A stretch of 64,000 nt of DNA, taken from Halofilum ochraceum (GTDB lineage Bacteria; Pseudomonadota; Gammaproteobacteria; XJ16; Halofilaceae). Under the pieces are notes generated by a model. The model did not search any database and was not told the DNA's origin. It saw only the letters and a program-made list of their open reading frames with translations. The position numbers and the translations under genes were made by a program. Positions 31,367-46,732 of the stretch are shown piece by piece. The stretch's first letter is position 1, and every line of letters begins with the position of its first letter. The stretch is taken from contig NZ_LVEG02000008.1 in assembly GCF_001614315.2 (NCBI RefSeq), positions 186,001-250,000 on the forward strand, in the 5' to 3' direction.

Positions 31367-32307
31367 CAGGGTAGCGGTACTTCGGCCTGGAGCCGTTCCC
31401 CCGGCGCCCCCTGGTCACCGCTGTCGATCGACTGCAGGCGGTGATTCACCACCGGGCCAAGCACGGCCTGGACGTCTTCCGGCAGCACATAGTCCCGCTC
31501 GGCGAGAAGGGCCCAGCCGCGGGCGGCGGCGATCAGGGACAGGCCGGCACGCGGGGAGAGTCCGGCCACGAATCGATCGCCATCGCGGGACGCCGCCAGC
31601 AGCGCCTGCACATAGTCGAGGATGGCGGGCGCGACGTGGATGCGCTCTGCCCTGGCCTGGAGTTCGCGCAGGCGTGCGGGGTCCAGGACCGCCTCCATAT
31701 CCCGGATCAGGTGACGGCGGTCAGTGCCGCTCAAAAGTTCACGCTCAGCGTCCGTGTCGGGGAAACCGAGCGACAGGCACATCAGGAAGCGGTCGAGCTG
31801 CGATTCCGGCAGCGGATAGGTTCCCGCCTGCTCGCGCGGATTCTGTGTGGCGATCACGAAAAACGGGTCGGGCAGGGCGCGCGTCTGCCCCTCGATGGTC
31901 ACCTGCTCCTCTTCCATGGCTTCCAGCAGCGCGCTCTGGGTCTTCGGGGGCGCGCGGTTGATCTCATCGGCGAGCACGAGTTCCGCGAACACCGGGCCGG
32001 GATGAAACCGGAACGTCGCGCTGTCGCGCTCGAAGACCGAGGCGCCGAGCACGTCCGCGGGCAGCAGATCGCTGGTGAACTGGATGCGTCGGTACTGGAG
32101 GTGGAGTACGTGCGCCAGCGCATGGGCCAGCGTCGTCTTGCCGACCCCGGGCACGTCCTCGAGCAGGAGATGCCCGCGTGCCAGCAGGCAGCTGAGCGCC
32201 AGCCGGATCACATGACGCTTGCCGAGTACCACGGTCGCGGTCCGGTCCAGCACCTCATGCAGACGGTCCGCGTTCGCCGTAACGCCGGTCTCCGGGGTAG
32301 CATGCAT
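31366..32307 (-). CDS. MoxR-type AAA+ ATPase
   Basis: This 313-aa ATPase has Walker A EDVPGVGKTTLA, Walker B ELVLADEINRAPPKTQSALLEAMEE, and sensor 1 FFVIATQNPREQAGTYPLPESQLDRFLM. The ATG at 32307 (MHATPETGVTANADRL) is chosen because the domain starts just after; a much longer open frame runs upstream through the antisense of the antiporter gene and is not real. MoxR proteins act as chaperones that activate partner complexes. It heads the operon with DUF58 and the transglutaminase. Confidence 0.94.
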   Translation of the reverse strand: MHATPETGVTANADRLHEVLDRTATVVLGKRHVIRLALSCLLARGHLLLEDVPGVGKTTLAHALAHVLHLQYRRIQFTSDLLPADVLGASVFERDSATFRFHPGPVFAELVLADEINRAPPKTQSALLEAMEEEQVTIEGQTRALPDPFFVIATQNPREQAGTYPLPESQLDRFLMCLSLGFPDTDAERELLSGTDRRHLIRDMEAVLDPARLRELQARAERIHVAPAILDYVQALLAASRDGDRFVAGLSPRAGLSLIAAARGWALLAERDYVLPEDVQAVLGPVVNHRLQSIDSGDQGAPGERLQAEVPLP

Positions 32308-32604
32308 CTGTCGCACTCCAGGGTTGCGGACCGGCATCGTGGCCGGGATCGACGCTGTCGGTCCGGGCGGATTACACCACGCTCCGGGGGCTCGGGAAAC
32401 CGCCCGGGCTCGCGAAGCAGGGGCGCGTCCGCGCACTGCGGACCGTTTCGACCGACGTGGCCAGCGGGATGCCGGTACCCATTGGGGGGCTTCGAATCCC
32501 CGTGTATCGATCGGGCCGGGTCCGGTAAGCTCTATCGCTTCGCGCGCACCATTGAATCCTCCACCTGCCGCCTGATGGCACAGGGACGGTAAAAGGCGCC
32601 CATC

Positions 32605-34176
32605 ATGTTCGAAGTCTTCGTACTGACCTTCGCGTTCTTCTTCGGTCTGGCCGTCAAACAGATTGGATTGCCGCCGCTGGTCGGTTTTCTGGTCGCCGGT
32701 TTTGGCCTGAATGCGCTCGGCGGACAAATCGGCCTGCCGCACGACAGCGGTGAAATCCTCGATCACGTCGCGCATCTGGGCGTCCTGCTGCTGCTGTTCA
32801 CCGTCGGTCTGAAACTGAAACTCCGCCAGCTGGTACAGCCGCAGGTGATCGGCGGATCGGTGCTGCACTTCGCGATTACCGTCGCCATCTTCGCGCCGGG
32901 TATCCATTTCCTCATGGATGCAACCTGGAACACGGCGTTGCTGGTGGCGGTCGCGCTGGCGTTTTCCAGCACGGTGCTGGCGGCCAAGACGCTTGAGACC
33001 AAGCGCGAGATCGGCGCGTTTCACGGTCGCGTCGCGATCGGCATCCTGATTCTTCAGGACGTGATCGCACTCATCGTGATCGCCATTCAGGGCGGCTCGA
33101 CGCCGTCGATCTGGGCACTGTGGATCCTCGCGCTGCCGCTCCTGCGGCCGCTGATGCACTGGCTGCTGGACCTGAGCGGTCATGACGAGCTCATGGTCCT
33201 CATGGGCATGCTGCTGGCGGTCGTGATCGGCGGCATGGGCTTCGAGGTGGTGGGTATCAGCCCGGAGATCGGTGCGCTGCTGATGGGCGTGATGCTGTCG
33301 AATCATCCGCGCGCGGCGGAGATGTCGGAATCGCTCTGGAGTCTCAAGGAAGTGTTCCTCGTCGGGTTTTTCCTGCAGATCGGCATGCAGGGACTGCCGT
33401 CCGTCAACGACCTCGTGTTCGCGCTGGTGTTCGCCCTGATCCTGCCGGTCAAGGGGGTCCTGTTCTTCTTCCTGCTGATCCTGTTCCGCCTCCGCGCGCG
33501 CAACGCCTTCCTTGCCGGACTGAGCCTCACCGCCTACAGCGAGTTCGGCCTGATCGTGTCCGCATCCGTGCTGCCGGAATGGCTGGTACCGCTGGCGATC
33601 ACGGTGGCGCTTTCGTTCATCGTCGCGGCGCCGCTGAACCGGCTGGCACATCCGCTGTTCGAGCGCTTCGAGGATTTCCTGCAGCGATTCGAGTCGCCGC
33701 ATCTGCACCCCGATGAGGAACCGACCGCTTTCGGCGACGCGAGGATCGTGATCATGGGCATGGGGCGCACCGGCGCCTCGGCTTATGACGCGCTCAGCCG
33801 CCGCGGGGCCAGCGTGATCGGTCTGGACTCGGATCCGTACAAGGTGGAGACCCATATCGCCGCAGGCCGCAACGTGGCCTACACGGATGCCGAGGATGCG
33901 AACTTCTGGCACGGCATCGATCTCTCGGGGATCCAGGCGGTCGTGCTCTCGATGGATGCGCTGGAATCGAAATTGATCGCGGCACGCCAGCTGCGTGCCC
34001 ACGGCTTCGCCGGTACCGTGGTGGCCCACGCGCTGCATGAGGATGAGGTCAATGCCGTGATCGCGGCGGGCGCTTCGGAGACGTATCTGACCATGTATGA
34101 AGCGGGCGTCGGCCTGGCCGAGCACACCTGGAAGGCGCTCGACGCGCCCGACGTATCGCCGGCAGTGCAGGAATGA
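32605..34176 (+). CDS. CPA2-family cation:proton antiporter with RCK-N domain
   Basis: This 523-aa protein has about 12 membrane helices of the CPA2 (KefB/YbaL) type in residues 1-375. It includes LAVKQIGLPPLVGFLVAGFGLNAL, LDHVAHLGVLLLLFTVGLKL and SSTVLAAKTLE. A TrkA-N (RCK) NAD-binding domain follows (RIVIMGMGRTGASAYDALSRRGASVIGLDSD). It probably exchanges K+ or Na+ for H+ under nucleotide control. There is no separate regulatory subunit gene nearby. A ribosome-binding site is not strong, but the N-terminus fits the family. Confidence 0.9.
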   Translation: MFEVFVLTFAFFFGLAVKQIGLPPLVGFLVAGFGLNALGGQIGLPHDSGEILDHVAHLGVLLLLFTVGLKLKLRQLVQPQVIGGSVLHFAITVAIFAPGIHFLMDATWNTALLVAVALAFSSTVLAAKTLETKREIGAFHGRVAIGILILQDVIALIVIAIQGGSTPSIWALWILALPLLRPLMHWLLDLSGHDELMVLMGMLLAVVIGGMGFEVVGISPEIGALLMGVMLSNHPRAAEMSESLWSLKEVFLVGFFLQIGMQGLPSVNDLVFALVFALILPVKGVLFFFLLILFRLRARNAFLAGLSLTAYSEFGLIVSASVLPEWLVPLAITVALSFIVAAPLNRLAHPLFERFEDFLQRFESPHLHPDEEPTAFGDARIVIMGMGRTGASAYDALSRRGASVIGLDSDPYKVETHIAAGRNVAYTDAEDANFWHGIDLSGIQAVVLSMDALESKLIAARQLRAHGFAGTVVAHALHEDEVNAVIAAGASETYLTMYEAGVGLAEHTWKALDAPDVSPAVQE

Positions 34177-34200
34177 ACGCCTTGATAGCCTGTTGGATTG

Positions 34201-34265
34201 CGTAGGTCGGGTTGTAACCCGACATATCAGTGGCTCGCGCGTGTCGGGTTACAACCCGACCTACG
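34201..34265. repeat. REP-like perfect inverted repeat
   Basis: Arms of 24 bp (34201-34224 and 34242-34265) are exact reverse complements, built on CGTAGGTCGGGTTGTAACCC; the spacer is 17 nt. Each arm also holds a smaller palindrome. The same GTAGGTCGG core recurs at 23896, 24789 (inverted) and 35208. Confidence 0.9.
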
Positions 34266-34302
34266 GATTTCCGCGAGCATCAGCGAGTCCCGGAGCGGCG
34301 GC

Positions 34303-35175
34303 ATGATGGAACGAGACGACCACGAATCTTTGGTCGATGCCGAGTGGCTAGAGCGTCATCTCCGAGACGATGACCTATGCGTCGTCGATGCGAGCTGGCA
34401 TCTGCCGAATACCGGCCGCGATGCCGGCCGCGAGTATCTCGCCGCCCATATCCCCGGGGCCGTGTTCTTCGATATCGATCGCGTCGCCGATACCGATTCG
34501 CAACTGCCGCACATGCTTCCCGATGCCGGCCATTTCGCCCGTGAAGTCGGCCGCCTCGGGATCGACAACGACACGCGGGTGATCGTATACGACAGCGCCG
34601 GGCTGTTTTCCGCCGCCCGCGTGTGGTGGATGTTCCGCGCGTTCGGGCACGCGCGCGTGGCGATTCTCGATGGCGGCCTGCCGGCCTGGCAGCGGCAGGG
34701 GCTGCCTCTGGAAGCGGGCCCGGTCGAACGGCCGCCGGCCGAATTCACTGCGCGGCCCGAACCGGCGGCGGTCTGGACGCGGGCTGATGTCCAGCGCAAC
34801 CTGGATACCGGTTCGGCGGCCGTGATCGATGCGCGGCCGCCGGGGCGTTTCGCCGGCACCGATCCCGAGCCACGCCCGGGTCTGCCGTCCGGCCATATTC
34901 CCGGTTCCCGTAATATTCCATTCAATACCGTGACTGATTCCGACACCGGATGCGTCCTGGCGCCCGCCGAGCTGCGCGAACGGTTCGCCGATCTGGACGA
35001 TCGCCCGGTAGTGTGTTCCTGCGGGACGGGCGTAACGGCATGCGTGCTTGCATTCGCATTGCATCGGCTTGGCCGCGATGACGTTGCCGTGTACGACGGT
35101 TCCTGGACCGAATGGGCCGCGCGGGAAGGAGCACCCATCGAGACCGGCCCCGGTAAACACAGTCCCTCGGGCTGA
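34303..35175 (+). CDS. 3-Mercaptopyruvate/thiosulfate sulfurtransferase (two rhodanese domains)
   Basis: This 290-aa tandem rhodanese protein has a catalytically silent N-terminal domain with typical CH2A-like blocks (HIPGAVFFDIDRVADTDSQLPHMLP). The active C-terminal domain has its Cys in VVCSCGTGVTACVLA; the CG(S/T)GVT loop favours 3-mercaptopyruvate over thiosulfate. A second HIPGSRNIPF block and VYDGSWTEWA follow. Two ATGs are adjacent at 34303 and 34306. It follows the antiporter, separated by the inverted repeat. Confidence 0.92.
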   Translation: MMERDDHESLVDAEWLERHLRDDDLCVVDASWHLPNTGRDAGREYLAAHIPGAVFFDIDRVADTDSQLPHMLPDAGHFAREVGRLGIDNDTRVIVYDSAGLFSAARVWWMFRAFGHARVAILDGGLPAWQRQGLPLEAGPVERPPAEFTARPEPAAVWTRADVQRNLDTGSAAVIDARPPGRFAGTDPEPRPGLPSGHIPGSRNIPFNTVTDSDTGCVLAPAELRERFADLDDRPVVCSCGTGVTACVLAFALHRLGRDDVAVYDGSWTEWAAREGAPIETGPGKHSPSG

Positions 35176-35207
35176 TCCCCCGATCCGCTCGCGGCGAATC
35201 GTCCGCC

Positions 35208-35232
35208 TGTAGGTCGGGCTTCCAGCCCGACA
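35208..35232. repeat. REP-like unit
   Basis: A single palindromic unit, TGTAGGTCGGGCTTCCAGCC and continuing, sits between the convergent sulfurtransferase and Cys-Cys membrane protein genes. It shares its core with the element at 34201-34265. Confidence 0.8.
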
Positions 35233-35286
35233 GATCAACGCCTCGGGACTATCCACCCGGTGCGCCCGCCGCAGAATTCCCGATAC

Positions 35287-35832
35287 TCAACCCGTGCCCG
35301 AATTGGCCCGGAACCACGGCGGCGCCCCCTGGCGCCGCTGCCACCAGCGACTCGCCCCCAGCAGCACCAGCGACAGCGGAACCAGCCATGCGAACAGGGC
35401 CGCGAAGGCACCCAGCCCCGGTATGCCGAGTAACAACAGCAGGCTCGGCGCGCAGCATGCACCGCCCGCGGCGAGCGCCGGCACGGCCGCCAGCACGCCG
35501 CCACCGCGGCCGGCGAGTCCGCATACCGCGGGCCGTTTCCACAGCATCCACCCGCCGTCGATATTCAGCGCGAGCAATACGCCGAGGGTGGCGGCGATCA
35601 GTATGTTCAGCGGGCTGATCAGCCACACGATGTGGTCCGCCTGCAGCATGGCGATGGCCTCGAACTGGAACACGACCCGCTGATCGAGCCAGAGCCCGGG
35701 ATCCCCCAGCGTCACCGACCAGACCGGCCGCGTCGCCGTGGAGAGATCGCCGAGCGCATAGAGATAGCCGAGCGCGTAGACGAGCCCCACCGCGGCGGCC
35801 GTGATTCTGACGTCAGGTCTCACCCGTGGCAT
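35287..35832 (-). CDS. Membrane protein with Cys-Cys motif, unknown function
   Basis: This 181-aa protein has about five hydrophobic segments. The middle contains a GGACCAPSLLLLLGIPGLG block, in which adjacent Cys before Pro lie at a helix start, recalling metal or thiol carriers; that is only an analogy. The start overlaps the stop of the DUF3179 gene by 20 bp, so it is the last gene of the sigma/EAL operon. No family is recognised. Confidence 0.75.
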   Translation of the reverse strand: MPRVRPDVRITAAAVGLVYALGYLYALGDLSTATRPVWSVTLGDPGLWLDQRVVFQFEAIAMLQADHIVWLISPLNILIAATLGVLLALNIDGGWMLWKRPAVCGLAGRGGGVLAAVPALAAGGACCAPSLLLLLGIPGLGAFAALFAWLVPLSLVLLGASRWWQRRQGAPPWFRANSGTG

Positions 35833-36832
35833 CGTCGATCACCGCGGTATCGGGGTAGAACGCCGCCCAGGCGAACCACATCGCCCGGAAGGCGTTCACC
35901 GGCTCCATTTCATTGCGGCCGTCGAAACGCGGCCCTTCCGGACCGAAGTCGATGGCACCGGGATCGATCGCGGCATCGCCGCGATAGACCCAGCCCGTAT
36001 CGAGGCCGGGATCGTGGATGATGACGTAGCGCGTACCGTCGATCCGACGTTCGATGACGCCCGCGTCCCGGAGCGTTCCGAGATCCACGGCGACCGCATG
36101 ATCGCGGCCCCGGAAACCGAGGACTTCCTGCTTGGGCGGATAGCGGTCACTGTCGTTCATTACGGGGAACATGCGGCTTGAATCCGGCGCGTAATAGCCG
36201 TTGACGGGGTTGTAGTTCCCATAGGGGTCCTGCTGGTAGTTCCGCATGATGCCCGTATCCGTCGACAGCACCCGCGTATCCGGGTAGCGCTCCTTCCAGC
36301 GCCCCCATTCGGTGAACACGGTCCGGAATTCCCGGAGCCCCTCGCCGGCCAGTGGCCCGGAGATGCCCGCGGCCAGGATCTGCGGCCAACGGCTTTCGGT
36401 CTCGCGGTCGTACATCACGAGGTTGCTGTTCAGCAGCTTGCCCGACACCCCGAACTCCACGCCGTTGCGATGGAAGCCGAGTCCGGTACCGGTCAACGGG
36501 CAATACGTGACGCTCACCGGATCGCCGGCCACGGTATCGTTCACGATCTCGTGCCAGACCAGGATCCGCTGCGGGTAGGCGCGCGCCTCGCCGTTGATAT
36601 AGATACCGATGACCCGGTCATTGTCATCGAGGAACGCGTCGGCGGCCTCGGCATCCTGGAACACCGGGTCATCGATCGAGGGAATCCCGTCCTTGGAGGC
36701 GCCGGTGCGGATATTGTCCCGGTACTCGGACAATGGTGCGTTCATGAGTTTCGCTTGATCGGTTGGTGGCTCGGCGATGGCTCCTGATGTTCCGACCATG
36801 AGCAATGCCGCCAGCAGTCGCGTGTATCGCAT
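35813..36832 (-). CDS. DUF3179 exported protein
   Basis: This 339-aa protein begins MRYTRLLAALLMVGTSGAIA, a signal peptide. The DUF3179 core follows: PSIDDPVFQDA..FLDDNDRVIGIYINGEARAYP, WHEIVNDTVAGDPVSVTYCPLTGTGLGF with its conserved Cys, and SGKLLNSNLVMYDRETESRWPQ. Family function is unknown; the Cys and His suggest a periplasmic enzyme or metal protein. It lies 94 bp downstream of the DUF547 gene and overlaps the membrane gene after it. Confidence 0.9.
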   Translation of the reverse strand: MRYTRLLAALLMVGTSGAIAEPPTDQAKLMNAPLSEYRDNIRTGASKDGIPSIDDPVFQDAEAADAFLDDNDRVIGIYINGEARAYPQRILVWHEIVNDTVAGDPVSVTYCPLTGTGLGFHRNGVEFGVSGKLLNSNLVMYDRETESRWPQILAAGISGPLAGEGLREFRTVFTEWGRWKERYPDTRVLSTDTGIMRNYQQDPYGNYNPVNGYYAPDSSRMFPVMNDSDRYPPKQEVLGFRGRDHAVAVDLGTLRDAGVIERRIDGTRYVIIHDPGLDTGWVYRGDAAIDPGAIDFGPEGPRFDGRNEMEPVNAFRAMWFAWAAFYPDTAVIDDATGET

Positions 36833-36926
36833 GTTGACCTCCTGAGAGATTGCCTGCGCCTGAACGCTCTGACCGGAGCGTGGCGCAAAAGTGCCAACGG
36901 GCCCGAGGGCGAATCGGCAGATGGGA

Positions 36927-37739
36927 TCACCCGCCAGCGGGATAACGATCGTTGAGGCGCCAATCGAAGGGATCGAATTCGACGTTGATGTCCTCGTCCG
37001 CGAGGGCGTCTGCGCGATTGTCATCGAGGTGGCGGCGTACGAACGCGAGCGCATCGTCGATCGAACCGCCGAAATCGCCGGTGTACCATCGGAACACCCG
37101 CGGCAGGCGGGCAGTGCGACCGGATGGATCGACCCGTACGGTTGCCGCGAGCTGTTCGCGGGTGGCGTTATCCAGTGCGGTTTCGGCCTGGGCTACCGGG
37201 ATTGCCCGGAGTGGCGGAGAGGACATGTTCGCCGTGTACAGCGCGAAGTGAATGCGTGGATCGATCGTGCGGAGACTCCAGCGCAGACGCGGGTCACCCG
37301 AAGAGAACAGGGGTTTGAGACCCATATACCGGCGCGCGTTTCCGCGCAGAATGCCGTGTTCGATTGCATCGAGCGTCAAAGCCTGTCCCGCTACCCGGTA
37401 ATACGGCCCGGTGAAGAAGTCTTCCCGTTCGCGCACCGAGGTGGCGATCGGTCCCGAGAGCACGATGTGCAGCGTGAGCAGGTTATACAGGTTGATCCAG
37501 AAGGCGACGGCGCTGTGCGGATCGGCGAGCCGGTCCGGGTCCAGGTCCGCGAGTGCGCTGGCCGTGTGGCGGAGTGCTTCGTATTCATCGGAGACCGCGG
37601 CCGCGCCGTAATCGACCCGATGCGAGGATGGGGCACAGTAGCGTGCGGCGATCCGTTCCAGCGCGCTTTCCACCGCGGTGACCGGGGTATCCGTGCCCGG
37701 CGTTCCTGGCGTCTCCTGATTGAGCTGCTCGCCCATCAT
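36927..37739 (-). CDS. DUF547 protein
   Basis: This 270-aa protein carries the DUF547 signature AVAFWINLYNLLTLHIVLSGP, then LTLDAIEHGILRGN and DPRIHFALYTANMSSPPLRAIPV, with a conserved Asn, His and Cys-free centre. Some DUF547 proteins have a papain-like fold, but no function is established. No clear signal peptide is present from the ATG at 37739. The start overlaps the EAL gene stop by 4 bp, indicating translational coupling. Confidence 0.88.
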   Translation of the reverse strand: MMGEQLNQETPGTPGTDTPVTAVESALERIAARYCAPSSHRVDYGAAAVSDEYEALRHTASALADLDPDRLADPHSAVAFWINLYNLLTLHIVLSGPIATSVREREDFFTGPYYRVAGQALTLDAIEHGILRGNARRYMGLKPLFSSGDPRLRWSLRTIDPRIHFALYTANMSSPPLRAIPVAQAETALDNATREQLAATVRVDPSGRTARLPRVFRWYTGDFGGSIDDALAFVRRHLDDNRADALADEDINVEFDPFDWRLNDRYPAGG

Positions 37740-39484
37740 CGCTTTATACCGCCTGCGATGCCGGCCTCTATGGGCCGTAACAGCGCGTCACGGCGTGCGG
37801 CACGCGCGTCACGGCGGTTCGTCTCTACAATCGCGTGCGCCGGTAGGGCGCGGGCATACAGAAAGCCCTGGAGTTCGTCACAGCCGAATTCCCGCATACG
37901 CCGCGCCTGCTGCTCGGTTTCGATGCCTTCGGCGGTGATTTTCAGTGACAGACTCCGCGCAAGGTCGGTGATCGCCCGCACGATGCGGCAGCCTTCCGCC
38001 GTATCCAGCCCCCTCACGAACGAGCGATCAATCTTGATGCGATCGACCGGCAGGCGGCCGAGATAGCCGAGTGAGGAATACCCGGTGCCGAAATCGTCGA
38101 GCGCGAAATGGACACCGCGTGCACGCAAGGCGGTAATCTGCGCCAGCGCTCCCTCCAGGTTGGCCAGCAGGGACGTCTCGGTGATCTCGAGTTCGAGTGA
38201 TTCCGGCGCGACGCCGTGGCGTTCAAGAGCGCGTGCGACGTCGTCTTCGAGTGTGCCGCTGACGAGTTGTTCCGCGTCCACATTGACGGACACCGTGAGG
38301 TCCATGCCGGATCGGTTCCAGCTCGCTACGGCCGCGACGGCGCGATCGAGCATAATGCGACCGATATCCGCAATCCGGCCACTATCGGCCGCCATCGGTA
38401 TGAATGTTCCCGGACTGATCGCGCCGTGCTCCGGATGCTCCCAGCGCGCCAGTGCCTCGGCGCTCACCCACTGGAGCGAATTCGCGCCGATCCGCGGCTG
38501 GAAATGGGCGTCCAGTGCCCGCTGATTGATCGCATCCTCCAGAGCGAGCGAGAGTTTTGCGATGTCCCGGAGCTCTTCACTGGATTCGGTCGCGTTCACG
38601 CGGGCACTGCCCGTCTGGGCTCGGCTCGATCGTGAAGCGGTCTCGGCCGCGTGCAGCAGGCCGGTCGGGGAATCGTTACCGCAGCCCCAGGCAATGCCCA
38701 TGGTCACCGTCGGTATCAGTGAATGGGCACCGCAGGGGATTGGAGACTGTAACTGCTGCCAGATGTCATCCAGTCGCTTGTCGATCACTTCGGCTGGTGC
38801 AGCGGTCACGAAAGCGAATCGGTAGGGGCTGATGACGCCCGCGGCGGCGCGCGTATCGGCGCCGGGCCGGATGCGATCGCTGATGGCACGGCGTACGGTC
38901 TCACCTACAGCGGAGCCGAGCGCGACCTCCCAGCGCGACAGCTCGCGGATCTCGATCACGGCAACGGCAACGCGGTCCTCGCTGCGAACGCGTTCCAGCA
39001 GGTGAGCCAGTTCCCGGGACAGGCCCTCGCGGTTGAACGCCCCGGTGATGGCGTCACGGTGAGCCCGCCGCACGAGGTGGGCATTGGCCTCGCGCAGGGT
39101 CTGAACGATTTCGCCCGTCAGACTGCCGATTTCATCGAAATGGAGTCCGGACGGTGGCTGCAGCGGTTTCCCCATTCGATATCCACGAACCATCTCCGTC
39201 ACCTGCGCGATCGGCCGCACCAGACACCGGGCCATGAGAGCGAAGCCGGCCAGACTCGCGCCCGCCGCCAGCACAAGCAACGTCACGGGTCCGATGTAGG
39301 CGGATGGATCGAGTTCGACCAGAGAGGCGACGAAGACGAATGGGGTCACCGCCAGCAGGGCCGCGAATGTCAGTTTCGTCGTCAGTGATCGTCGGATGCC
39401 GGGGATCCCACGGAGTCCGCGTGAAGCCAGGCACACGGCCTCATCGCCGGAAGGTGCTTTGCGGTAGTGGCCGGCCCCGGTCAT
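37736..39484 (-). CDS. Membrane EAL phosphodiesterase with degenerate GGDEF domain
   Basis: This 582-aa protein has two membrane helices (~35-90), a short HAMP-like segment, a degenerate GGDEF domain and an EAL domain. The GGDEF signature is replaced by SPYRF (~219-223), so cyclase activity is not expected. The EAL domain keeps its key residues: EALARW (~343), N in SVNVDAEQL (~401), ELEITE (~432), DDFGTGYSS (~463), IKID (~483) and AEGIE (~518). It should hydrolyse cyclic di-GMP. The start at 39484 lies 4 bp after the sigma factor stop. No extracytoplasmic sensor domain of notable size is present. Confidence 0.9.
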   Translation of the reverse strand: MTGAGHYRKAPSGDEAVCLASRGLRGIPGIRRSLTTKLTFAALLAVTPFVFVASLVELDPSAYIGPVTLLVLAAGASLAGFALMARCLVRPIAQVTEMVRGYRMGKPLQPPSGLHFDEIGSLTGEIVQTLREANAHLVRRAHRDAITGAFNREGLSRELAHLLERVRSEDRVAVAVIEIRELSRWEVALGSAVGETVRRAISDRIRPGADTRAAAGVISPYRFAFVTAAPAEVIDKRLDDIWQQLQSPIPCGAHSLIPTVTMGIAWGCGNDSPTGLLHAAETASRSSRAQTGSARVNATESSEELRDIAKLSLALEDAINQRALDAHFQPRIGANSLQWVSAEALARWEHPEHGAISPGTFIPMAADSGRIADIGRIMLDRAVAAVASWNRSGMDLTVSVNVDAEQLVSGTLEDDVARALERHGVAPESLELEITETSLLANLEGALAQITALRARGVHFALDDFGTGYSSLGYLGRLPVDRIKIDRSFVRGLDTAEGCRIVRAITDLARSLSLKITAEGIETEQQARRMREFGCDELQGFLYARALPAHAIVETNRRDARAARRDALLRPIEAGIAGGIKR

Positions 39485-39488
39485 TGAC

Positions 39489-40268
39489 CTATGATCCCCG
39501 GGGCGGCGCTTCAGATCCTTCGAGGACGGGACGGATGCGCTCATCGATCGCACCGCGCGCCCGTGCAATCCGGGAACGCACGGTCCCGATCGGACAATCC
39601 ATGACGGACGCGATCTCTTCGTAGGACAGCCCGTTCATCTCCCGCAGTGTCAGTGCCTCCCGCAGGCATGCAGGCATCGCTTCGACCGCATGGTCGATCG
39701 CCTGTCGGACCTCTCCGGTCGCCGCGTGCCGTTCGGGGGTGTCCGTGTCGCGCAGTAGCGCGGCGTCATCGAAGCGTTCGGCCTCCGCCGGATCCATGCC
39801 GCCGCGCACCGCACCGCGCCGGTCCATTGCGATCCGGTGGTTGCGGGCCGTGTTGACGGTGATCCGGTACAGCCAGGTATAGAACGCGCTGTCGCCGCGG
39901 AATCGGGCGAGACCGCGGTAGGCCCGCAGGAACGCCTCCTGGGCGACATCCTCCAGCTCCGACGGGTCGGCGATATGCCGTCGCAACAGCGCGGCCACGC
40001 GGTGCTGGTATTTCTTTACGAGCAGATCGAAGGCCGCGTTCTCGCCGCGCTGCACGCGTTCAATCAGGGCCCGATCGACCGCGTTTTCGTCCGGCTCGCC
40101 CGCGATGGCGGTCCGCTCCCCGGGTTTCTCCGAAATGTCCGGATCATTGGCGGGATGATCGCCGCAGGCGTTCGTCTCGGGTCGGGCGGGCCGCGCGGCG
40201 GGCGAATCGCGTTCAGTGGTACCCGGCCATGCGAGCCGGTTGAACGATTCAACGGTAGCGGTCGCCAT
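39489..40268 (-). CDS. ECF sigma factor, RpoE-like, with N-terminal extension
   Basis: This 259-aa sigma factor has region 2 (AFDLLVKKYQHRVAALLRRH, LEDVAQEAFLRAYRGLARFRGDSAFYTWLYRITVN) and region 4 (REALTLREMNGLSYEEIASVMDCPIGTVRSRIARAR) typical of the RpoE-like ECF group. About 62 extra residues, rich in Pro, Glu and Asp, precede region 2. A GGGGAGA site supports the ATG at 40268. No RseA-like anti-sigma gene follows; the next gene is the EAL protein. Its upstream region carries one copy of the shared TACG-N10-TACGTA motif (40310-40368), suggesting autoregulation or control by a common activator. Confidence 0.93.
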   Translation of the reverse strand: MATATVESFNRLAWPGTTERDSPAARPARPETNACGDHPANDPDISEKPGERTAIAGEPDENAVDRALIERVQRGENAAFDLLVKKYQHRVAALLRRHIADPSELEDVAQEAFLRAYRGLARFRGDSAFYTWLYRITVNTARNHRIAMDRRGAVRGGMDPAEAERFDDAALLRDTDTPERHAATGEVRQAIDHAVEAMPACLREALTLREMNGLSYEEIASVMDCPIGTVRSRIARARGAIDERIRPVLEGSEAPPRGS

Positions 40269-40309
40269 TTCCTGTCTCCCCGTTTATGGATCAATTGATG
40301 ACAGGTGGG

Positions 40310-40368
40310 AGTCTGCGGGGAGGGCCGCGAACCGGAAATTCGTGGTTATACGTACGCAACCGACCGTA
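40310..40368 (-). promoter_or_regulatory. Shared promoter motif, copy S (sigma factor gene)
   Basis: Read on the minus strand: TACG at 40368-40365, then 10 nt, then TACGTATAACCACGAATT (40354-40337), then CAGACT at 40315-40310. This matches copies A and B in spacing exactly. CAGACT as a -10 element would place the transcript start about 35 nt before the sigma ATG. Confidence 0.8.
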
Positions 40369-40454
40369 CATCCGACCGAAGATCCGGCGCGATGCACCGC
40401 GATCGCCGGTCCAGCGGTAGCGGTTGCCCAAGCGACTCGCCCAGGGCGTTGGAT

Positions 40455-40513
40455 TACGGACTACCGCGTACGTACAACCGCCAATTCAACGGGATCGTCA
40501 CTGCGTCCAGGCT
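40455..40513 (+). promoter_or_regulatory. Shared promoter motif, copy A (94-aa exported protein)
   Basis: TACGG at 40455, TACGTACAACCGCCAATT at 40469-40486, and CAGGCT at 40508-40513. Compared with copy B, 17 of 18 bases of the middle block are identical, and the 14-nt and 39-nt offsets are the same. The predicted transcript start is about 43 nt before the ATG at 40563. Confidence 0.85.
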
Positions 40514-40562
40514 TTGAATCGCCAAACGGCAGAATCCAAACCCTGGAATGGAGGTTATCGCC

Positions 40563-40847
40563 ATGAATCCGATGAAACGGTATGTGACGGGGCGCAGGTT
40601 GTCTGCGCTTGCTCTCGCGGGGGCACTCGCGGCGGCAACGGCATCCGAGGGCGCATTCGCGATGCTTACGTCCACTGACGTTGAGCACATGAATCGTGAA
40701 GCTGAGCTCAGTCAGGGCAAAGTAGGCCTCGTCGATCTCGGCAGGCCGGGTCCAGTGATTCTGGAACCCGAGCCCCGTTCCGGTCCGTTGGACTACGACC
40801 CGGTCGCTGGGCGTGTCGGCCGCATGCCGGTTGACCGGGAGCAGTGA
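40563..40847 (+). CDS. 94-aa exported protein, GAFAM family (paralogue A)
   Basis: The ATG at 40563 sits behind GGAGG (40550-40554). The protein has a signal peptide with a GAFA end, then MLTSTDVEHMNREAELSQGKVGLVDLG and a Pro-rich acidic tail ending VAGRVGRMPVDREQ. A second protein of exactly the same length at 62132 shares the GAFAM(L/V)T..D junction, a Gly/Pro middle and a VGR near the end. No known family is recognised. It lies divergent from the sigma factor gene and upstream of the 343-aa protein gene. The mature protein is small (~60 aa) and presumably periplasmic. Confidence 0.8.
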   Translation: MNPMKRYVTGRRLSALALAGALAAATASEGAFAMLTSTDVEHMNREAELSQGKVGLVDLGRPGPVILEPEPRSGPLDYDPVAGRVGRMPVDREQ

Positions 40848-40890
40848 TCACGGTCCAACGGCCCGAACGCCCATCTTTCATTTACACCGG

Positions 40891-40918
40891 CCGGGGAGGC
40901 GCCTTGATGTCTCCCCGG
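40891..40918. terminator. Hairpin after paralogue A
   Basis: A perfect 8-bp stem (CCGGGGAG with CTCCCCGG) and 12-nt loop lie 44 bp past the stop. No T tract follows, so it may be an attenuator, a processing site or a weak terminator. Confidence 0.5.
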
Positions 40919-41052
40919 TCTATACCTGCCTCCACCACGAGTGGCCGCGACCCGTCGCGGTTGCGGGGCGCATCCAGGTCAATACGCCCGATCGCCGGAA
41001 CCAGGTGAAAAGTCTCAACGATCCACGTGTCGCTACCAAAGCACCTCGCCGA

Positions 41053-41112
41053 TACGGGGAAGCACGTACGTACAAAATCGAATCGCTGGACGTCGGATTC
41101 CGGTTCCAGACT
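41053..41112 (+). promoter_or_regulatory. Shared promoter motif, copy C (343-aa protein gene)
   Basis: TACGG at 41053, TACGTACAAAATCGAATC at 41067-41084, and CAGACT at 41107-41112. TACG to TACGTA is again 14 nt; the distal block is one base further away than in the other copies, and AACC is AAAA here. It lies about 100 bp before the ATG at 41211, so the leader would be longer. Confidence 0.7.
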
Positions 41113-41210
41113 GTTGTTGACGGACGGCGGAAATCCGCCCGTTGCTGAACCCGATACACAAGTCGCGCATCTCCAGGTGCTGCGACGCTTTACCTGGTAG
41201 GAGGTTCGAT

Positions 41211-42242
41211 ATGAGCCATTTGCTGAAATCTACGGCTGTCGGATGGAGTCAACATCGCTGGTGGGCCCGAGCGGGAATGGCCATTGCGATCGGTGGTTTT
41301 CTGGCTGTCGCGGCCGGGAGCCTGCCGGCGGCCGACGCGGATGTGGAGAAGGGGAAAAATCCCTTGCGTATAACCGAAGTCAGTCAGTCACCGGGCAACA
41401 TCACCTACTGGGTGCTGCCGGGACCGCGTGTACTCGAGGAAGAGACCTTCGGCACGCCGGACGATCCGGAAATGCTTTTCCGGCCGAAACTCAAGGCGGC
41501 TCAACAGGCCGGCGGACCACCGGCGGTGCCGGATACGCTGAAGAGCCTGCCCTTTCTTGTGGGCATACCGGAAAAGGCCCGGACGGTAAGCGACGACGGT
41601 ACCTGGGTGTTTGATAAGCCGACGGCGTTCTCGAATAACGCCCGGATCATCAATGGGCAGTTCGAAACGACGATGCGGGATGTCGTGCGCGAGGATACGC
41701 CCGGCAAACCTGGCAACACGCCGGATACCGCCTCGTTCGAAGCCCAGTTCAACGATCCTGCCGGCAACGAATATCGCGTTGTCCTGGATCATGTCGTCAA
41801 ACCGCCGTTCCCCGGTTACGAGACCCAGGGCGGCGTGTTCACCGAGGACTTCCTGCACGGCAACACCGGCACGGGCACGCCGTTGATGCCCAAACAGTAC
41901 ACCTATGCCGCGTGGTGGGGGCTCGGTGAGCTCTACATCAACGGGGAGAAAGTGGACGACCACCGCGTGATGCATCTGATGACCACCGAAGTCGTCCGCA
42001 ACCGCGACTATAACCTCGTATTTTCGGACGACCTGCCTCTGGGGGCGGACGAACGCCATATCCGGAATCAGGAGCACCATACCCACCTGATGATGCCCCC
42101 GGTGCGCGGTGTCCCGGGCAAGGGGCCGGTGTTCGATCCCGTACCGACGGCATTTGAACTGCCGAACGGGAAAAAGCAGCCGTTCCTGCACATCATGTTC
42201 GAGCAGGACGAGCTGTCCTCGCGCGAGCCGACGCGTTCGTGA
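41211..42242 (+). CDS. Unclassified 343-aa exported protein
   Basis: The ATG at 41211 follows TAGGAGG. A signal peptide (AGMAIAIGGFLAVAAGSLPAADA) precedes a mature domain of ~300 aa that looks beta-rich. Notable blocks are GNITYWVLPGPRVLEEETFG, NNARIINGQFETTMRDVV, FTEDFLHGNTGTGTPLMPKQYTYAAWWGLGELYINGE, DDHRVMHLMTTEVVR and NQEHHTHLMMPPVRG (His at ~289, 290 and 292). The His/Met block and the cupredoxin gene downstream suggest a copper or redox role, but no family is recognised. The gene precedes a cupredoxin, a membrane protein and an MHYT protein with short gaps. Confidence 0.8.
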   Translation: MSHLLKSTAVGWSQHRWWARAGMAIAIGGFLAVAAGSLPAADADVEKGKNPLRITEVSQSPGNITYWVLPGPRVLEEETFGTPDDPEMLFRPKLKAAQQAGGPPAVPDTLKSLPFLVGIPEKARTVSDDGTWVFDKPTAFSNNARIINGQFETTMRDVVREDTPGKPGNTPDTASFEAQFNDPAGNEYRVVLDHVVKPPFPGYETQGGVFTEDFLHGNTGTGTPLMPKQYTYAAWWGLGELYINGEKVDDHRVMHLMTTEVVRNRDYNLVFSDDLPLGADERHIRNQEHHTHLMMPPVRGVPGKGPVFDPVPTAFELPNGKKQPFLHIMFEQDELSSREPTRS

Positions 42243-42331
42243 TCGGCCCGGCGTCCACGGCCACGGGTCGTGGACGCCCCTTTGCCGTGTGAACGCGATC
42301 CCGCTATCCGAAAAACCGGGAGGTAAGACTC

Positions 42332-42709
42332 ATGCGACGCTTCAATGCGTACAGGGGAAAAATCGACAGGATCGTCGGACTGGTTCTCGGTCTCGGCATG
42401 ATGGGGCTGACCGCCAATGCCCAGGCCGAGGATATCGAAACCGTAAAGGTCGTTGCGAAAGAGTTTGAATTTCAGCCGGCGACGATCGAAATGGAGGCCG
42501 GAGAAACGGTGCGCCTGAAGCTGGTCAACAACGGACAGCTCAGCCACAACCTCCACTTGCGGGGGATTTCCACGAATACGGAAACGATTCAGGCGGGCAA
42601 CAGCGACACGGTGCGCGTGACGGCATCCGAGAATGGGACGCTGGAATTCTATTGCGACGTTCCGGGCCATGAGCAGGCGGGCATGACCGGCAAAATCGTA
42701 GCGGAGTGA
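42332..42709 (+). CDS. Plastocyanin-like cupredoxin
   Basis: This 125-aa protein has an N-terminal signal peptide (GLVLGLGMMGLTANAQA) and a type 1 copper fold. Copper ligands are visible: H72 in GQLSHNLHL, and C108, H113 and M118 in FYCDVPGHEQAGMTG. That is the plastocyanin/amicyanin pattern, so it likely carries electrons in the periplasm. A GGGAGG site precedes the ATG. It follows the 343-aa protein gene by about 90 bp; donor and acceptor are unknown. Confidence 0.9.
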   Translation: MRRFNAYRGKIDRIVGLVLGLGMMGLTANAQAEDIETVKVVAKEFEFQPATIEMEAGETVRLKLVNNGQLSHNLHLRGISTNTETIQAGNSDTVRVTASENGTLEFYCDVPGHEQAGMTGKIVAE

Positions 42710-42766
42710 CGACATTACGGTCACTCGGGATCCTTCAAGTACGCGAGAACAATCCGGAGATCAAAG

Positions 42767-43255
42767 ATGGAGTGGTATAAAGCGGGGGCCGTGGGTGCCC
42801 TTGGCAGTCTGATTATTCTGGTCGTAATGTTTGTGGGCATCGAGATCACCGGGTTCGCCCCATTCAATCTTCCGCCATCGGCGGCATTCCTCAAAGCACT
42901 GGGTATACCGGTCCAGCCGCTGGCGGTGATTGCACACTTTATTTATGGAATCGCCTGGGCGGTGATTCTCTATGCCCTGTTCGAATCGAGAACGAACATC
43001 CTGCGTGGTCTTGGCCTCGCGGTGCTCGTCCAGTGGCTGCTCCTGATGCAGTTGGTGTACTCACCGATCATCGGTTGGGGCGTTTTCGGCGCCGCTGCCG
43101 GTTCACTACCACCGGATGCGCCGCTCGCGCTGTCATCGCAGGTGAAATACATCGCCCTGACGTTCGTCCTCCACGTCGTTTACGGTGGGCTGAATGGCTG
43201 GTTGATCCCATTATGGACCGGCGGTGATCGGCGACTGGCAAGGGCGGCGGCATGA
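42767..43255 (+). CDS. Four-helix membrane protein with paired HxxYG motifs
   Basis: This 162-aa protein has four hydrophobic segments. Two similar motifs, HFIYG (~57-61) and HVVYG (~145-149), lie in the two halves and suggest internal symmetry and possible haem, copper or gas-binding His residues; the meaning is inference. The stop overlaps the MHYT gene start (ATGA). No family was confidently recognised. Confidence 0.75.
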   Translation: MEWYKAGAVGALGSLIILVVMFVGIEITGFAPFNLPPSAAFLKALGIPVQPLAVIAHFIYGIAWAVILYALFESRTNILRGLGLAVLVQWLLLMQLVYSPIIGWGVFGAAAGSLPPDAPLALSSQVKYIALTFVLHVVYGGLNGWLIPLWTGGDRRLARAAA

Positions 43256-44007
43256 CCCATTCAGTCGGGGATTACAGCCTCCTGCTTGTGTTCGGATCCT
43301 GGCTGGTCGCGGTAGCCGGAGCGTCCGTCGGCCTTTTTTCAAGCCAGTACGTGCGCGACTCCGACGGACGAGTGCGGGTGGCGTGGACGATGTTCTCGTC
43401 ACTGGTGATTGCCGGCTGCATGATGTGGTCGGCCCATTACGTCGGCATGTTGGCGTACCAACCCGATTGGCCGATCACGTTTGACGTGCACATGACCTGG
43501 CTGTCATTCGTCATGCCGGTCGTATTCGCTGCGGTCGCGGTCCTGATCGTGACACGGCATCCGGAGTCGCTTGCCGTGCTTACGGTCGGTGGTGCGACGA
43601 TGACGATGGGACTGGTCGCATTGCATTATGCGGGCGTGGCGGCGATGCGTACGCCGGCGCACATCACGCATGATGCCACCCTGGTGGCGGTTTCCATCGT
43701 GCTGGCATTCGTGACCTCGACGGGCGCATTGTTCGTGATGGTCAAGGTGCAGGGGTGGCACAGGTATCTCGCCGTACCTCTGATGGGGTTGGCCGTGTGC
43801 AGCATGCATTACACGGGTATGGCGGCGATGGAACCCGTCCGAAGGAGTGGTTCCATCGAGTATTTCGAAGGCGCGCTGACGCACGGCATGTTGACCACCT
43901 GGGTCGTTTCCGCGACCGGGGCGGTCATTATGCTTGGGGTTCTGCTTGGCCTGGCGGGATATCTCGACCGTGCGTCAACGCACAGTCGTCGGCAGGGAAG
44001 CCTCTGA
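43252..44007 (+). CDS. Stand-alone MHYT-domain membrane protein
   Basis: This 251-aa protein has about seven membrane helices and three MHYT motifs: AHYVGM (61-66), LHYAGV (124-129) and MHYTGM (185-190), with Met and His nearby in helices. MHYT domains have been proposed to bind copper and sense O2, CO or NO; usually they are fused to GGDEF/EAL or kinase domains. Here there is no output domain, but a membrane EAL protein is encoded in the divergent operon. It is translationally coupled to the preceding membrane gene. Confidence 0.9.
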   Translation: MTHSVGDYSLLLVFGSWLVAVAGASVGLFSSQYVRDSDGRVRVAWTMFSSLVIAGCMMWSAHYVGMLAYQPDWPITFDVHMTWLSFVMPVVFAAVAVLIVTRHPESLAVLTVGGATMTMGLVALHYAGVAAMRTPAHITHDATLVAVSIVLAFVTSTGALFVMVKVQGWHRYLAVPLMGLAVCSMHYTGMAAMEPVRRSGSIEYFEGALTHGMLTTWVVSATGAVIMLGVLLGLAGYLDRASTHSRRQGSL

Positions 44008-44122
44008 AGCCCGCTGCGAATGTGCCATCATCTGGCAAGCCCCGGCGCAGTGTATGAATTCTGATCCGCCGGGAGTAGCGAACGCGGCGGTGCGTCAGAC
44101 GGTTCTCGCGGCTTGAAACGCC

Positions 44123-44698
44123 TCAGAGCTGGTAGCCTAACTCCAGCATGACGATGTCGAGCCCGGGGTTCGGTGAGGCGAAGCCGGCGTTCGAGGAATG
44201 CCGAACGCGCAATCCGAGGTGCCATCGCCGTTCGGCGCCCAGCTCGTAGCCGAGTGTCGCGTGCGTGGTGAAGTGCCACAGACTGCCGAGATCCGAGCCG
44301 GCCACCCGCTGCTCGCTGACGTACGCGATACTGGTTCCCGCCTCGAGGAAACCACGCTCACCGAGCGGCCAGGGACGGAAGCGCCATGCCGGACCGAAAT
44401 GCGTGGTGTAGACGTTGTCGTTATCGGGGTCGGCGTTCGTCCAGAGACTCAGCGCGGCTTCGTAGTGCATGTCGTCGCCGATCCAGCCGAGCCAGACTGG
44501 CGTCGATTCCGGTTCGAACGTCAGTCCGAGCGCACCGCCATCGATGTCGCCGGCATCGGCGGGCACCCCGCTGCGAAGCCGCACGCTGTCAAGTTGTGCC
44601 GCTTGCAGTGTAGTCGTGATGGGGAAAAGGCTGGCCCCCGCAAGTGCTGCAGCCGCCATTGCGGTTTTTCTTCTGGATCCCCGAACCGGCATCTTCAT
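44123..44698 (-). CDS. PagL-like lipid A 3-O-deacylase
   Basis: This 191-aa protein has a signal peptide (TAMAAAALAGASLFPITTTLQAAQ) and an outer-membrane beta-barrel ending in LELGYQL. The PagL signature RHSSNAGFASPNPGLD is present: catalytic His (H167) and Ser (S169) are in place. The third catalytic position, Glu in Pseudomonas PagL, aligns with D181 here. It should remove the 3-O acyl chain from lipid A if active. The gene is convergent with the MHYT gene. Confidence 0.88.
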   Translation of the reverse strand: MKMPVRGSRRKTAMAAAALAGASLFPITTTLQAAQLDSVRLRSGVPADAGDIDGGALGLTFEPESTPVWLGWIGDDMHYEAALSLWTNADPDNDNVYTTHFGPAWRFRPWPLGERGFLEAGTSIAYVSEQRVAGSDLGSLWHFTTHATLGYELGAERRWHLGLRVRHSSNAGFASPNPGLDIVMLELGYQL

Positions 44699-44794
44699 TC
44701 ATCCCTACTGTCAAAAATGTCTGCGGACGACGCGCGAAGAACGCGAAGCAGATGCTGTGACAGGCAGAGGGTCGTTCGGTTCCAGGTCCGTACG

Positions 44795-45280
44795 TCATCG
44801 AGCGGGTGCACCGACGGGGTCACCGTTACCGGCTGGGTCTGGCGTGCGGCGGGCGCAGCGCTCGCGGACCAGGAGCATCGGCAGACTCACATTGATCATG
44901 ATGGCCACGCAGACAAAGCTGTGGCATGCAAGCGCGAGAGCGATGAGGTTCGCCAGATAGGCCGTATTGTACTGGACGGAATCCGCCCTCGGCAGGAGGT
45001 CGGGCGCCCGGTACAGATACCAGAAGCGCCAGAGCAGCCATGTGACCGTCGCCAGCGAACCGATCACGAATACCGGTGCAATGAACGGACGGTCCGCGAG
45101 CAGTGTCTCGAACGGGAGCGTCGCCAGAAAAAACAGACGGAAGACGGGCACGAGCGCGCCATGCCAGCGCGGGGTAAAACGCCACGCCTCAGCCCGGCGG
45201 GCCGTCCAGAACGACAGCGCCACCCAGACGGGGACTACGAGCGCGTAGAGGCCGAAAATCAACCCGTGCCCACCGATCAC
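44795..45280 (-). CDS. Small membrane protein, unknown function
   Basis: A GTG at 45280 behind an AAAGGG site gives 161 aa with four hydrophobic segments: LIFGLYALVVPVWVALSF, VFRLFFLATLPF, FIAPVFVIGSLATVTWLLWRF and LANLIALALACHSFVCVAIM. The longer in-frame extension to 45445 is Arg- and Pro-rich and is not included. No family is recognised. It lies just upstream of the pagL-like gene on the same strand. Confidence 0.55.
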   Translation of the reverse strand: MIGGHGLIFGLYALVVPVWVALSFWTARRAEAWRFTPRWHGALVPVFRLFFLATLPFETLLADRPFIAPVFVIGSLATVTWLLWRFWYLYRAPDLLPRADSVQYNTAYLANLIALALACHSFVCVAIMINVSLPMLLVRERCARRTPDPAGNGDPVGAPAR

Positions 45281-45502
45281 CTGATATCCCTTTCTCGCCG
45301 CGGATAGTCGGACCTTGAATGTGACTGCGACATTGGTCGCGCACACCAGTTCCCCGCGAGTAACTCGCGCGATGCGGATGCAGAGTCGACTGGCGCGAAG
45401 TGTGTGCGGGGGCGGGTTCAACCAGGCGACCGGGGGATCCGCCATCTTAGGGTGTCAGGTGAGTGCAGGCGCGGAACCGTGATATCGCGGCATTCGCTGA
45501 AA

Positions 45503-45528
45503 GGCCCGGTCCTTTTCAGGACCGGGCC
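45503..45528. terminator. Strong 10-bp hairpin, likely bidirectional terminator
   Basis: A perfect stem GGCCCGGTCC / GGACCGGGCC encloses the 6-nt loop TTTTCA. It lies between the two orphan minus-strand genes at 44795 and 45637. It has no long T tract on either side. Confidence 0.7.
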
Positions 45529-45636
45529 CGACGGGTTGTGAGTTTTATGGGTTCGTTATGTTGCGCCTTGCGGAGACTTCCGCTCGGCGAGCGGGTAATA
45601 ACCGGTGGCAAGCGTCGTCCATCCGGTCAAGAAGCT

Positions 45637-46032
45637 TTATGAGGTCATAATGACCTCGAGAACCTCCCTGGCGCGGTCCGGGATGATCGGATACGCGACG
45701 GTCTGGTCCCGGAATCGGAGCCGAAAATCGGCGTAGCGGGCGCGCTCGCCCGCGTCACCGTCGACTCTGACGATGACCTGGACATCACCGTGATTGCTGA
45801 TGCCCTCGACATAGAGTTCCCACTGCGTGCCATCGTCGCGTTCCCAGATGATTCTGTCGCCTTCGACAAAGCCGCGTTCGGGGGTTCTGTACAGTATGAG
45901 CGCGTTGTTTTCGTCGAGGCGGTCGCCTTCCGCTTTGGCGAAGACGCTCGGGGCGCCCACATTCGGGGCGCCCACATTCAGACCACTATCAGACTCCTGT
46001 TCCATATCAGGACTCCAGTAAGCGGTATTCAT
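45637..46032 (-). CDS. Orphan 131-aa protein with tandem repeat near N-terminus
   Basis: This frame gives a soluble acidic protein. Residues ~19-29 read NVGAPNVGAPS, made by two exact 15-bp direct repeats (45950-45964 and 45965-45979). The rest (LILYRTPERGFVEGDRIIWERDDGTQWELYVEGISNHGDVQVIVRVDGD) looks like a folded beta-rich domain. No family is recognised and no strong ribosome-binding site is visible. It sits just beyond the 3' end of tmRNA, a frequent insertion site, so acquisition by transfer is possible. Confidence 0.5.
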   Translation of the reverse strand: MNTAYWSPDMEQESDSGLNVGAPNVGAPSVFAKAEGDRLDENNALILYRTPERGFVEGDRIIWERDDGTQWELYVEGISNHGDVQVIVRVDGDAGERARYADFRLRFRDQTVAYPIIPDRAREVLEVIMTS

Positions 46033-46372
46033 GTCCAGTGTACGCCTCGCACGGGGTAAACCCCCAAACGGTCGAGGGGCCGGATCGACCCCCTCAATGT
46101 GGCCCGTATGAGCCCGGTACAGGGTCGTTCACCGTTCAGAAACGGGAGTCCGTACTTCGGATCAATGAATGCTGAGGAGCGAGTGCAGCGCCGGACTGCT
46201 ATGCCAGTGAAGTATGCACGCAGCCCTTACTGAATGGCCCCAAGGTCGGGGGCAATCCACCGAGCGAAGGCAGTAGGTTTCAGCGGGTGGCCGGTAAACG
46301 GGTGGAATCCCGGGGGAGCCCTGATTCTGGGAGCCCCGAGATTCCACTCGGTACCTGATGCTACGGATTATT
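46033..46372. other. Gene-free region downstream of tmRNA with a hairpin
   Basis: No gene is seen. A 14-bp inverted repeat (46302-46315 and 46334-46347, GTGGAATCCCGGGG type) lies just beyond the tmRNA 3' end and may stop transcription. No second copy of the tmRNA 3' end was found, so there is no sign of an integrated island boundary. Confidence 0.55.
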
Positions 46373-46732
46373 TGGTGGAGGCGGGGGGAATTGAACCCCC
46401 GTCCGCGGATCCTCCGCCATTGGTCCTACATGCTTAGCCGCGTCTATTGTGTTTAGCCATCCGGTAAGCCGACGGGCAGGCGAACCGGACAGCGACCCCC
46501 TTGGGTTTTAACGGATCGGCCCGGGGGAGGCCTCACCGCGATCCCGTGTTTGGCGACCCCGGATGAATCCGCCCACGGGCAGGCAGAAGTCCGAGGCTCA
46601 CGGCTGTTTAGGCCGCGAGAGCGTAGTTGTCGTCGTTGGCAACTATCTTTAGTTGCAGCGTTGTTTACGAGGTCACTGCACCTCGGCATGCACCTCCGGT
46701 TTCGCGATCCACGTCGAATCCATGTCGCCCCC
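46373..46732 (-). ncRNA. ssrA: tmRNA (ssrA)
   Basis: The minus strand holds a full-length transfer-messenger RNA of about 360 nt. The 5' end reads GGGGGCGACATGGATTCGAC, and the 3' end carries the T-arm GGTTCAATTCC and CCTCCACCA (CCA at 46373-46375). The tag frame at 46608-46640 encodes [10 protein letters not shown] followed by TAA, a typical gammaproteobacterial proteolysis tag. It rescues stalled ribosomes and marks the product for ClpAP/ClpXP; clpA and clpS are also in this window. Confidence 0.97.

Follow-up and report, generated by a model that had tools for sequence, protein, structure and literature searches.

Organization of the locus

The locus under study lies within a 64,000-nucleotide stretch of the Halofilum ochraceum genome, which we refer to as the window, and consists of five co-directional genes, designated A to E, that face an ECF sigma factor gene and a GGDEF-EAL gene on the other strand (Table 1). 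An earlier reading of this DNA from its letters alone (the sequence-only reading) had described the same five open reading frames and their divergent neighbors, and all of these were confirmed.

Table 1. Genes and features in and around the B–C locus (window positions)
Feature	Position	Strand	Description
Gene A	40563–40847	+	94-aa predicted exported protein, without Pfam or NCBIfam family
Gene B	41211–42242	+	Predicted exported protein (343 aa) with Sec-type signal peptide; family unnamed; invariant His, Met and Trp residues
Gene C	42332–42709	+	Predicted exported type-1 copper protein (cupredoxin) with ligands H72, C108, H113 and M118; partner of B
Gene D	42767–43255	+	Four-helix membrane protein, DUF6789-like, HxxYG in segments 2 and 4
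Gene E	43252–44007	+	Membrane protein of stand-alone MHYT type; 4-base overlap with D
ECF sigma factor gene	39489–40268	-	RpoE family (TIGR02939); divergent, local neighbor only
GGDEF-EAL protein gene	37736–39568	-	Local neighbor only
tmRNA gene	46373–46732	-	Borders a block of about 14 kb that holds the B–C locus

The intergenic spacings are 363 bases between A and B, 89 between B and C, 57 between C and D, and -4 between D and E; of the translational coupling claimed for the last two genes, the overlap itself is confirmed. Purine-rich stretches precede the starts of A, B, C and D, with E as the exception, and no internal promoter of the sigma-70 type was scored. Genes B, C, D and E plausibly form one transcript, whereas A is probably a separate unit outside the B–C system, because of its wide separation from B compared with the tight spacing of the remaining genes.

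A genome-specific block bordered by tmRNA

In a same-genus genome (G002) other genes replace the part of the window from about 32.2 to 46.4 kb (32200–46400). The G+C content of this block is 58–70%, mostly lower than the value of about 70% outside it. The ECF sigma and GGDEF-EAL genes on the other strand lie inside the block, and no close orthologue of the GGDEF-EAL gene is present in two same-genus genomes. No second copy of the tmRNA 3' end turned up in a search for att sites, and no integrase was noticed in the region among the ORFs read, which were not an exhaustive set; with neither flanking direct repeats nor an integrase found, we do not classify the block as a genomic island inserted at tmRNA. 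Elsewhere in the block (35287–37739, minus strand) DUF547 and DUF3179 genes lie in a run with the gene for a membrane protein of 181 aa that has a GGACCAPS motif, and in Marinobacter (L012, L013) a DUF547 gene is likewise located about 3.7 kb from B.

Gene B encodes a rare protein without a named family

Protein B has a hydrophobic stretch at residues 23–41, as expected of a Sec-type signal peptide, and contains no cysteine. The sequence-only reading had listed A and B as unclassified and allowed that B might belong to a known family with another role; neither protein has a Pfam or NCBIfam family, no such family was matched over cut-off by any of 14 members of the B group tested, these gave no match to PCuAC or any other copper-family Pfam, and B matches no known family. 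A PDB profile search returned a designed protein and 3g3l as its best matches, at about 1e-3 and outside the His/Met region, which we judged to be chance. B is also not a cupredoxin, as hhalign comparison of its alignment (A3) with that of the partner cupredoxins (A4) gives a probability of 0.9%. Models of the full-length and mature protein had pLDDT values of 34 and 36, because only four sequences were admissible as input, and were left out of fold searches.

Near-complete homologues number 22 and are found in Gammaproteobacteria, in one other proteobacterial class and on megaplasmids of haloarchaea, with identities to the window protein down to about 32%. The genome collection contributed two Marinobacter genomes (64–65%) and an Alcanivorax MAG, whose best segment reaches 73%, the plasmid collection four haloarchaeal megaplasmids (43–48%), and a phylum profile search one more gammaproteobacterium together with eight members of one family of another class. 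A class-wide search of 369 genomes gave seven further genomes, including G198, which matches over a short C-terminal stretch only. B is rare and patchy everywhere, being present in 8 of the 369 genomes of the class and in 5 of 61 sampled from the second-class family, frequencies that are rough given that the loci come from sampled genomes. It is absent from two same-genus genomes, and none was found in the viral contigs and phages searched. Most homologues carry a lipobox, where the window protein has a Sec signal instead, and the haloarchaeal N-termini have paired arginines of the Tat type, with one member matching the TAT profile weakly.

The tree of B has two well-supported halves. The haloarchaeal proteins, which are encoded on plasmids, form one clade (100/100) positioned beside those of G010 and G203 (grouping 89/86), and clade and plasmid location together fit a movement of B from bacteria to haloarchaea, the direction being inferred on an unrooted tree.

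The genome G198 encodes three distant B-like proteins (listed under L008, L009, L010 and L020) that match only the short C-terminal stretch and are excluded from the B counts; in the aligned one (L020), H327 and M329 are missing, and no cupredoxin was noticed as its neighbor.

B is paired with blue-copper proteins in bacteria and haloarchaea

A cupredoxin accompanies B at 19 of the 21 loci that could be assessed, either encoded downstream on the same strand (16 loci: the window, L011, L012, L013, L057, L014, L015, L023, L017, L018, L019, L058, L059, L060, L061 and L062) or fused to the C-terminus of B (three haloarchaeal loci); L016 and L065 fall outside this count, as the sequence ends too close to B. 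The fused proteins (L021, L022 and L024, from Natrinema, Halomontanus and Natrinema respectively) are 463–481 aa long and have a C-terminal domain with H...YYCQVHPxSMRG, that is, the ligand pattern H...C-x-x-H-x(3)-M. Pfam assigns the L021 domain to Copper-bind, and those of L022 and L024, without a Pfam match of their own, align with it throughout. At L063 and L064 B has no adjacent cupredoxin, which counts against the explanation that we favor below, and DUF302 and DUF6789 genes are found there instead. Directly upstream of the fused gene in Natrinema thermotolerans (L021, 6563–7843) lies a gene for a DUF7405 protein that matches DyP-peroxidase weakly.

Of the thousands of genes in a genome, between one and five match PF00127; the sole match of G413 and of G157 is the gene beside B, and so is one of the two in G525. 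We estimate that chance would place a cupredoxin gene downstream of B at well under 1% of loci, and given the scarcity of PF00127 genes and the 19 of 21 loci that are paired, the association is far beyond chance. The partner cupredoxins, all of blue-copper type, fall into three quite different sub-types with 21–52% identity to C (alignment A4), and the presence of three types at the same place argues that a blue-copper function has been kept rather than one inherited gene block. Since the haloarchaeal B proteins form one supported clade beside gammaproteobacterial sequences, the pair also appears to have been retained after transfer between domains of life.

A survey of copper genes in Haloferax mediterranei lists an uncharacterised copper-binding protein on pHME505 (PMC9240420), which is probably the cupredoxin beside B; its neighbor B receives no mention in the portion of the survey available. 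A cupredoxin cluster described in Sideroxydans gives no evidence of B (PMC12016527).

The sequence-only reading had proposed that all five genes constitute one module. Comparison of gene neighborhoods shows that B and C, and in part D, are kept together in relatives, whereas A and E are beside B at no other locus examined; the ECF sigma/EAL pair, which had been drawn into the same system, belongs to the genome-specific block, and B–C recur without it. The conserved core is thus B and C, with A, D and E being mostly its local company. For this core, the description as an undescribed envelope copper/redox system is borne out by the adjacency and fusion across bacteria and archaea and by the invariant His and Met residues of B.

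Invariant residues of B resemble a copper site

Alignment of the 22 B proteins shows that H216, H255, M257, H292, H327, M329 and W236 are invariant throughout, and that position 294 is Met in 16 and Val or Ile in 6, giving the pattern H216, H255-x-M257, H292-x-(M294), H327-x-M329 (H, HxM, Hx(M), HxM). Eight of the proteins, all in one clade (L060, L061, L062, L063, L064, L058, L059 and L019), also have an insert of about 50 residues just upstream of the last HxM, before H327, with 8–14 Met and 10–15 Lys. HxM is found in established Cu(I) sites, for example the CxxxM-HxM site of OprC (PMC7558416). The invariant His/Met set of B looks like a copper site, and we infer that B binds copper. The PCuAC family and OprC similarly have HxM pairs as presumed copper ligands, whereas B has three such pairs and a further invariant His. 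B is also about twice the size of PCuAC.

It is conceivable that B is a structural or other non-metal protein, for instance one involved in surface binding, that its link to cupredoxins reflects a shared regulon, and that the His and Met residues serve folding or substrate binding. The equal invariance of D157, D162 and D172 would suit such a role. However, retention of six invariant His/Met residues across homologues this divergent is atypical for structural roles, and fusion together with the frequency of adjacency exceeds what a shared regulon needs, such that we regard this as the least probable of the explanations considered.

Cupredoxin C and a proposed exchange with B

The sequence-only reading assigned C a complete set of type 1 copper ligands, and H72, C108, H113 and M118 are indeed present in C and invariant in 12 aligned partners. 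C matches PF13473 with 55 bits (9.4e-15; cut-off 27) and PF00127 with 42.4 bits (9.7e-11; cut-off 21.2). Its best NCBIfam match is CopI (1.7e-18); an assignment to CopI is rejected, as the scores of 67 and 20.1 bits are far below the cut-offs of 280 and 200 (NF051440/NF047895). CopI is described as marked by His-rich and His/Met-rich regions (PMC13308877), and C, with three His in total, has neither these nor His- or Met-rich tails. C thus resembles CopI in being a predicted periplasmic cupredoxin, and differs in lacking such regions and in having B, not copA, as its partner.

We tentatively propose, with a probability of about 0.45, that B founds a still unnamed family of copper proteins located outside the cytoplasm and is paired with the type-1 blue-copper protein C. 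The four invariant His and their HxM partners would bind one or two copper ions on neighboring beta strands; at this site B would oxidise or reduce a periplasmic substrate, electrons would pass between B and C in either direction, and C would shuttle them to the membrane, in the window genome perhaps to D. E may be a local add-on that senses copper, O2 or CO.

For intramolecular electron transfer, fusion to a blue-copper domain is the usual arrangement. Known enzyme and blue-copper pairs include nitrite reductase with pseudoazurin and methylamine dehydrogenase with amicyanin. B–C is similar to these in that a small type-1 copper protein shares a locus, and at times a polypeptide, with a larger, presumably extracytoplasmic protein, and is different in that B has no sequence kinship to solved or curated enzymes. 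Because of the fused domain and the occurrence of three cupredoxin types in the same place, our best reading favors exchange of electrons between B and C, although a role in passing on or buffering copper has almost the same likelihood, as HxM motifs and a Met-rich insert would suit a protein that stores or transfers copper no less than a catalyst. Both share the claim that B binds copper.

One form of the second idea has B acting in the periplasm or at the surface as a chaperone or buffer for copper, or in copper resistance: it would capture Cu(I) and load, or be relieved by, a CopI-like cupredoxin. We consider this a serious contender short of an even chance. Apart from the Cu(I)-type motifs and the insert, the best NCBIfam relative of C being a copper-tolerance protein (if far below cut-off) is consistent with it, as is the patchy distribution of B, including haloarchaeal plasmids, which is as seen for resistance genes. 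On the other hand, no CopA-type ATPase, CusF, CopC or copper regulator was recognized beside B at the loci inspected, where the neighbors are partly annotated; the paucity of His in C and its lack of His- or Met-rich tails do not suit this role, and it would be unusual for a chaperone to be fused to a complete blue-copper domain.

Under the favored electron-exchange reading, a stronger version, which we regard as doubtful, is that B represents a copper enzyme of a new class, with four His and two or three Met at its site, an undescribed fold and a dedicated blue-copper electron partner, and that it has moved with this partner between bacteria and haloarchaea. More generally, B–C points to a copper system of two parts at the cell surface that has so far gone undescribed. 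Most blue-copper proteins of environmental genomes are orphans, and one sub-class here gains a specific partner, identified by neighborhood and fusion in two domains of life, with six B residues offered for mutation; Haloferax mediterranei, in which the pair has the locus tags E6P09_RS15805 and RS15800, is cultured and tractable, so the B–C idea is testable there.

Companion genes A, D and E

The two HxxYG motifs described for D are present (HFIYG at 57, HVVYG at 136), and their H57 and H136 are the only His in the protein, located in segments 2 and 4 of its four hydrophobic segments. Both His are conserved in four aligned D proteins (D and those of G203, L063 and L064) and, by the positive-inside rule, are predicted to be at the periplasmic side of helices 2 and 4. 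D is below the Pfam cut-off for DUF6789 (PF20587; 13 bits against 27.1), although it aligns at 29% identity with the DUF6789 protein encoded beside B and C in G203, which keeps both motif His, and its L015 homologue matches the family at 108.6 bits. D or DUF6789 genes are near B at four loci in three lineages (the window, L015, L063 and L064), and DUF6789 is found in 7 of 185 genomes, including two with B (G057, G157). DUF6789 is not a general neighbor of cupredoxins, since it was not seen at cupredoxin loci without B.

DUF302 and DUF6789 genes adjoin in L063 (7517–8744) and L064 (1028–2255), which have B, and in L081 (815–1935), which does not and where DUF302 was recognized by eye; a separate association of these two families is possible.

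As the sequence-only reading had noted, E lacks an output domain; it has four MHYT stretches (97.8 bits, 3.5e-28) and no other domain. A paralogue is located elsewhere in the genome, and a search of 56 genomes gave relatives in 11 others, none of them beside B outside the window's own locus. No relative of A was found in 55 other genomes. MHYT domains had been put forward as copper-based gas or redox sensors, and this has experimental support for CoxC, an MHYT protein with copper-dependent CO sensing (PMC11347149); a sensing role here is a local guess, because the five-gene module is not conserved. E is like CoxC in its MHYT domain, and as a single MHYT domain it has an architecture already reported; it differs in lacking an output domain, and its association with B is not a conserved one.

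The proposal that all five genes act as one copper- or gas-sensing envelope system under divergent ECF sigma/EAL control is in keeping with the co-directional gene order, the D/E overlap and the copper requirement of the CoxC MHYT domain. It is nonetheless improbable, given that A and E keep no company with B elsewhere, that B–C recur without ECF/EAL genes, and that these genes lie in a block missing from G002. A same-genus genome (L043, 1501–2879) has a stand-alone MHYT gene followed immediately by a SCO/SenC-like copper chaperone gene (recognized by eye), an arrangement that would favor the same proposal and that speaks for a connection between lone MHYT proteins and copper.
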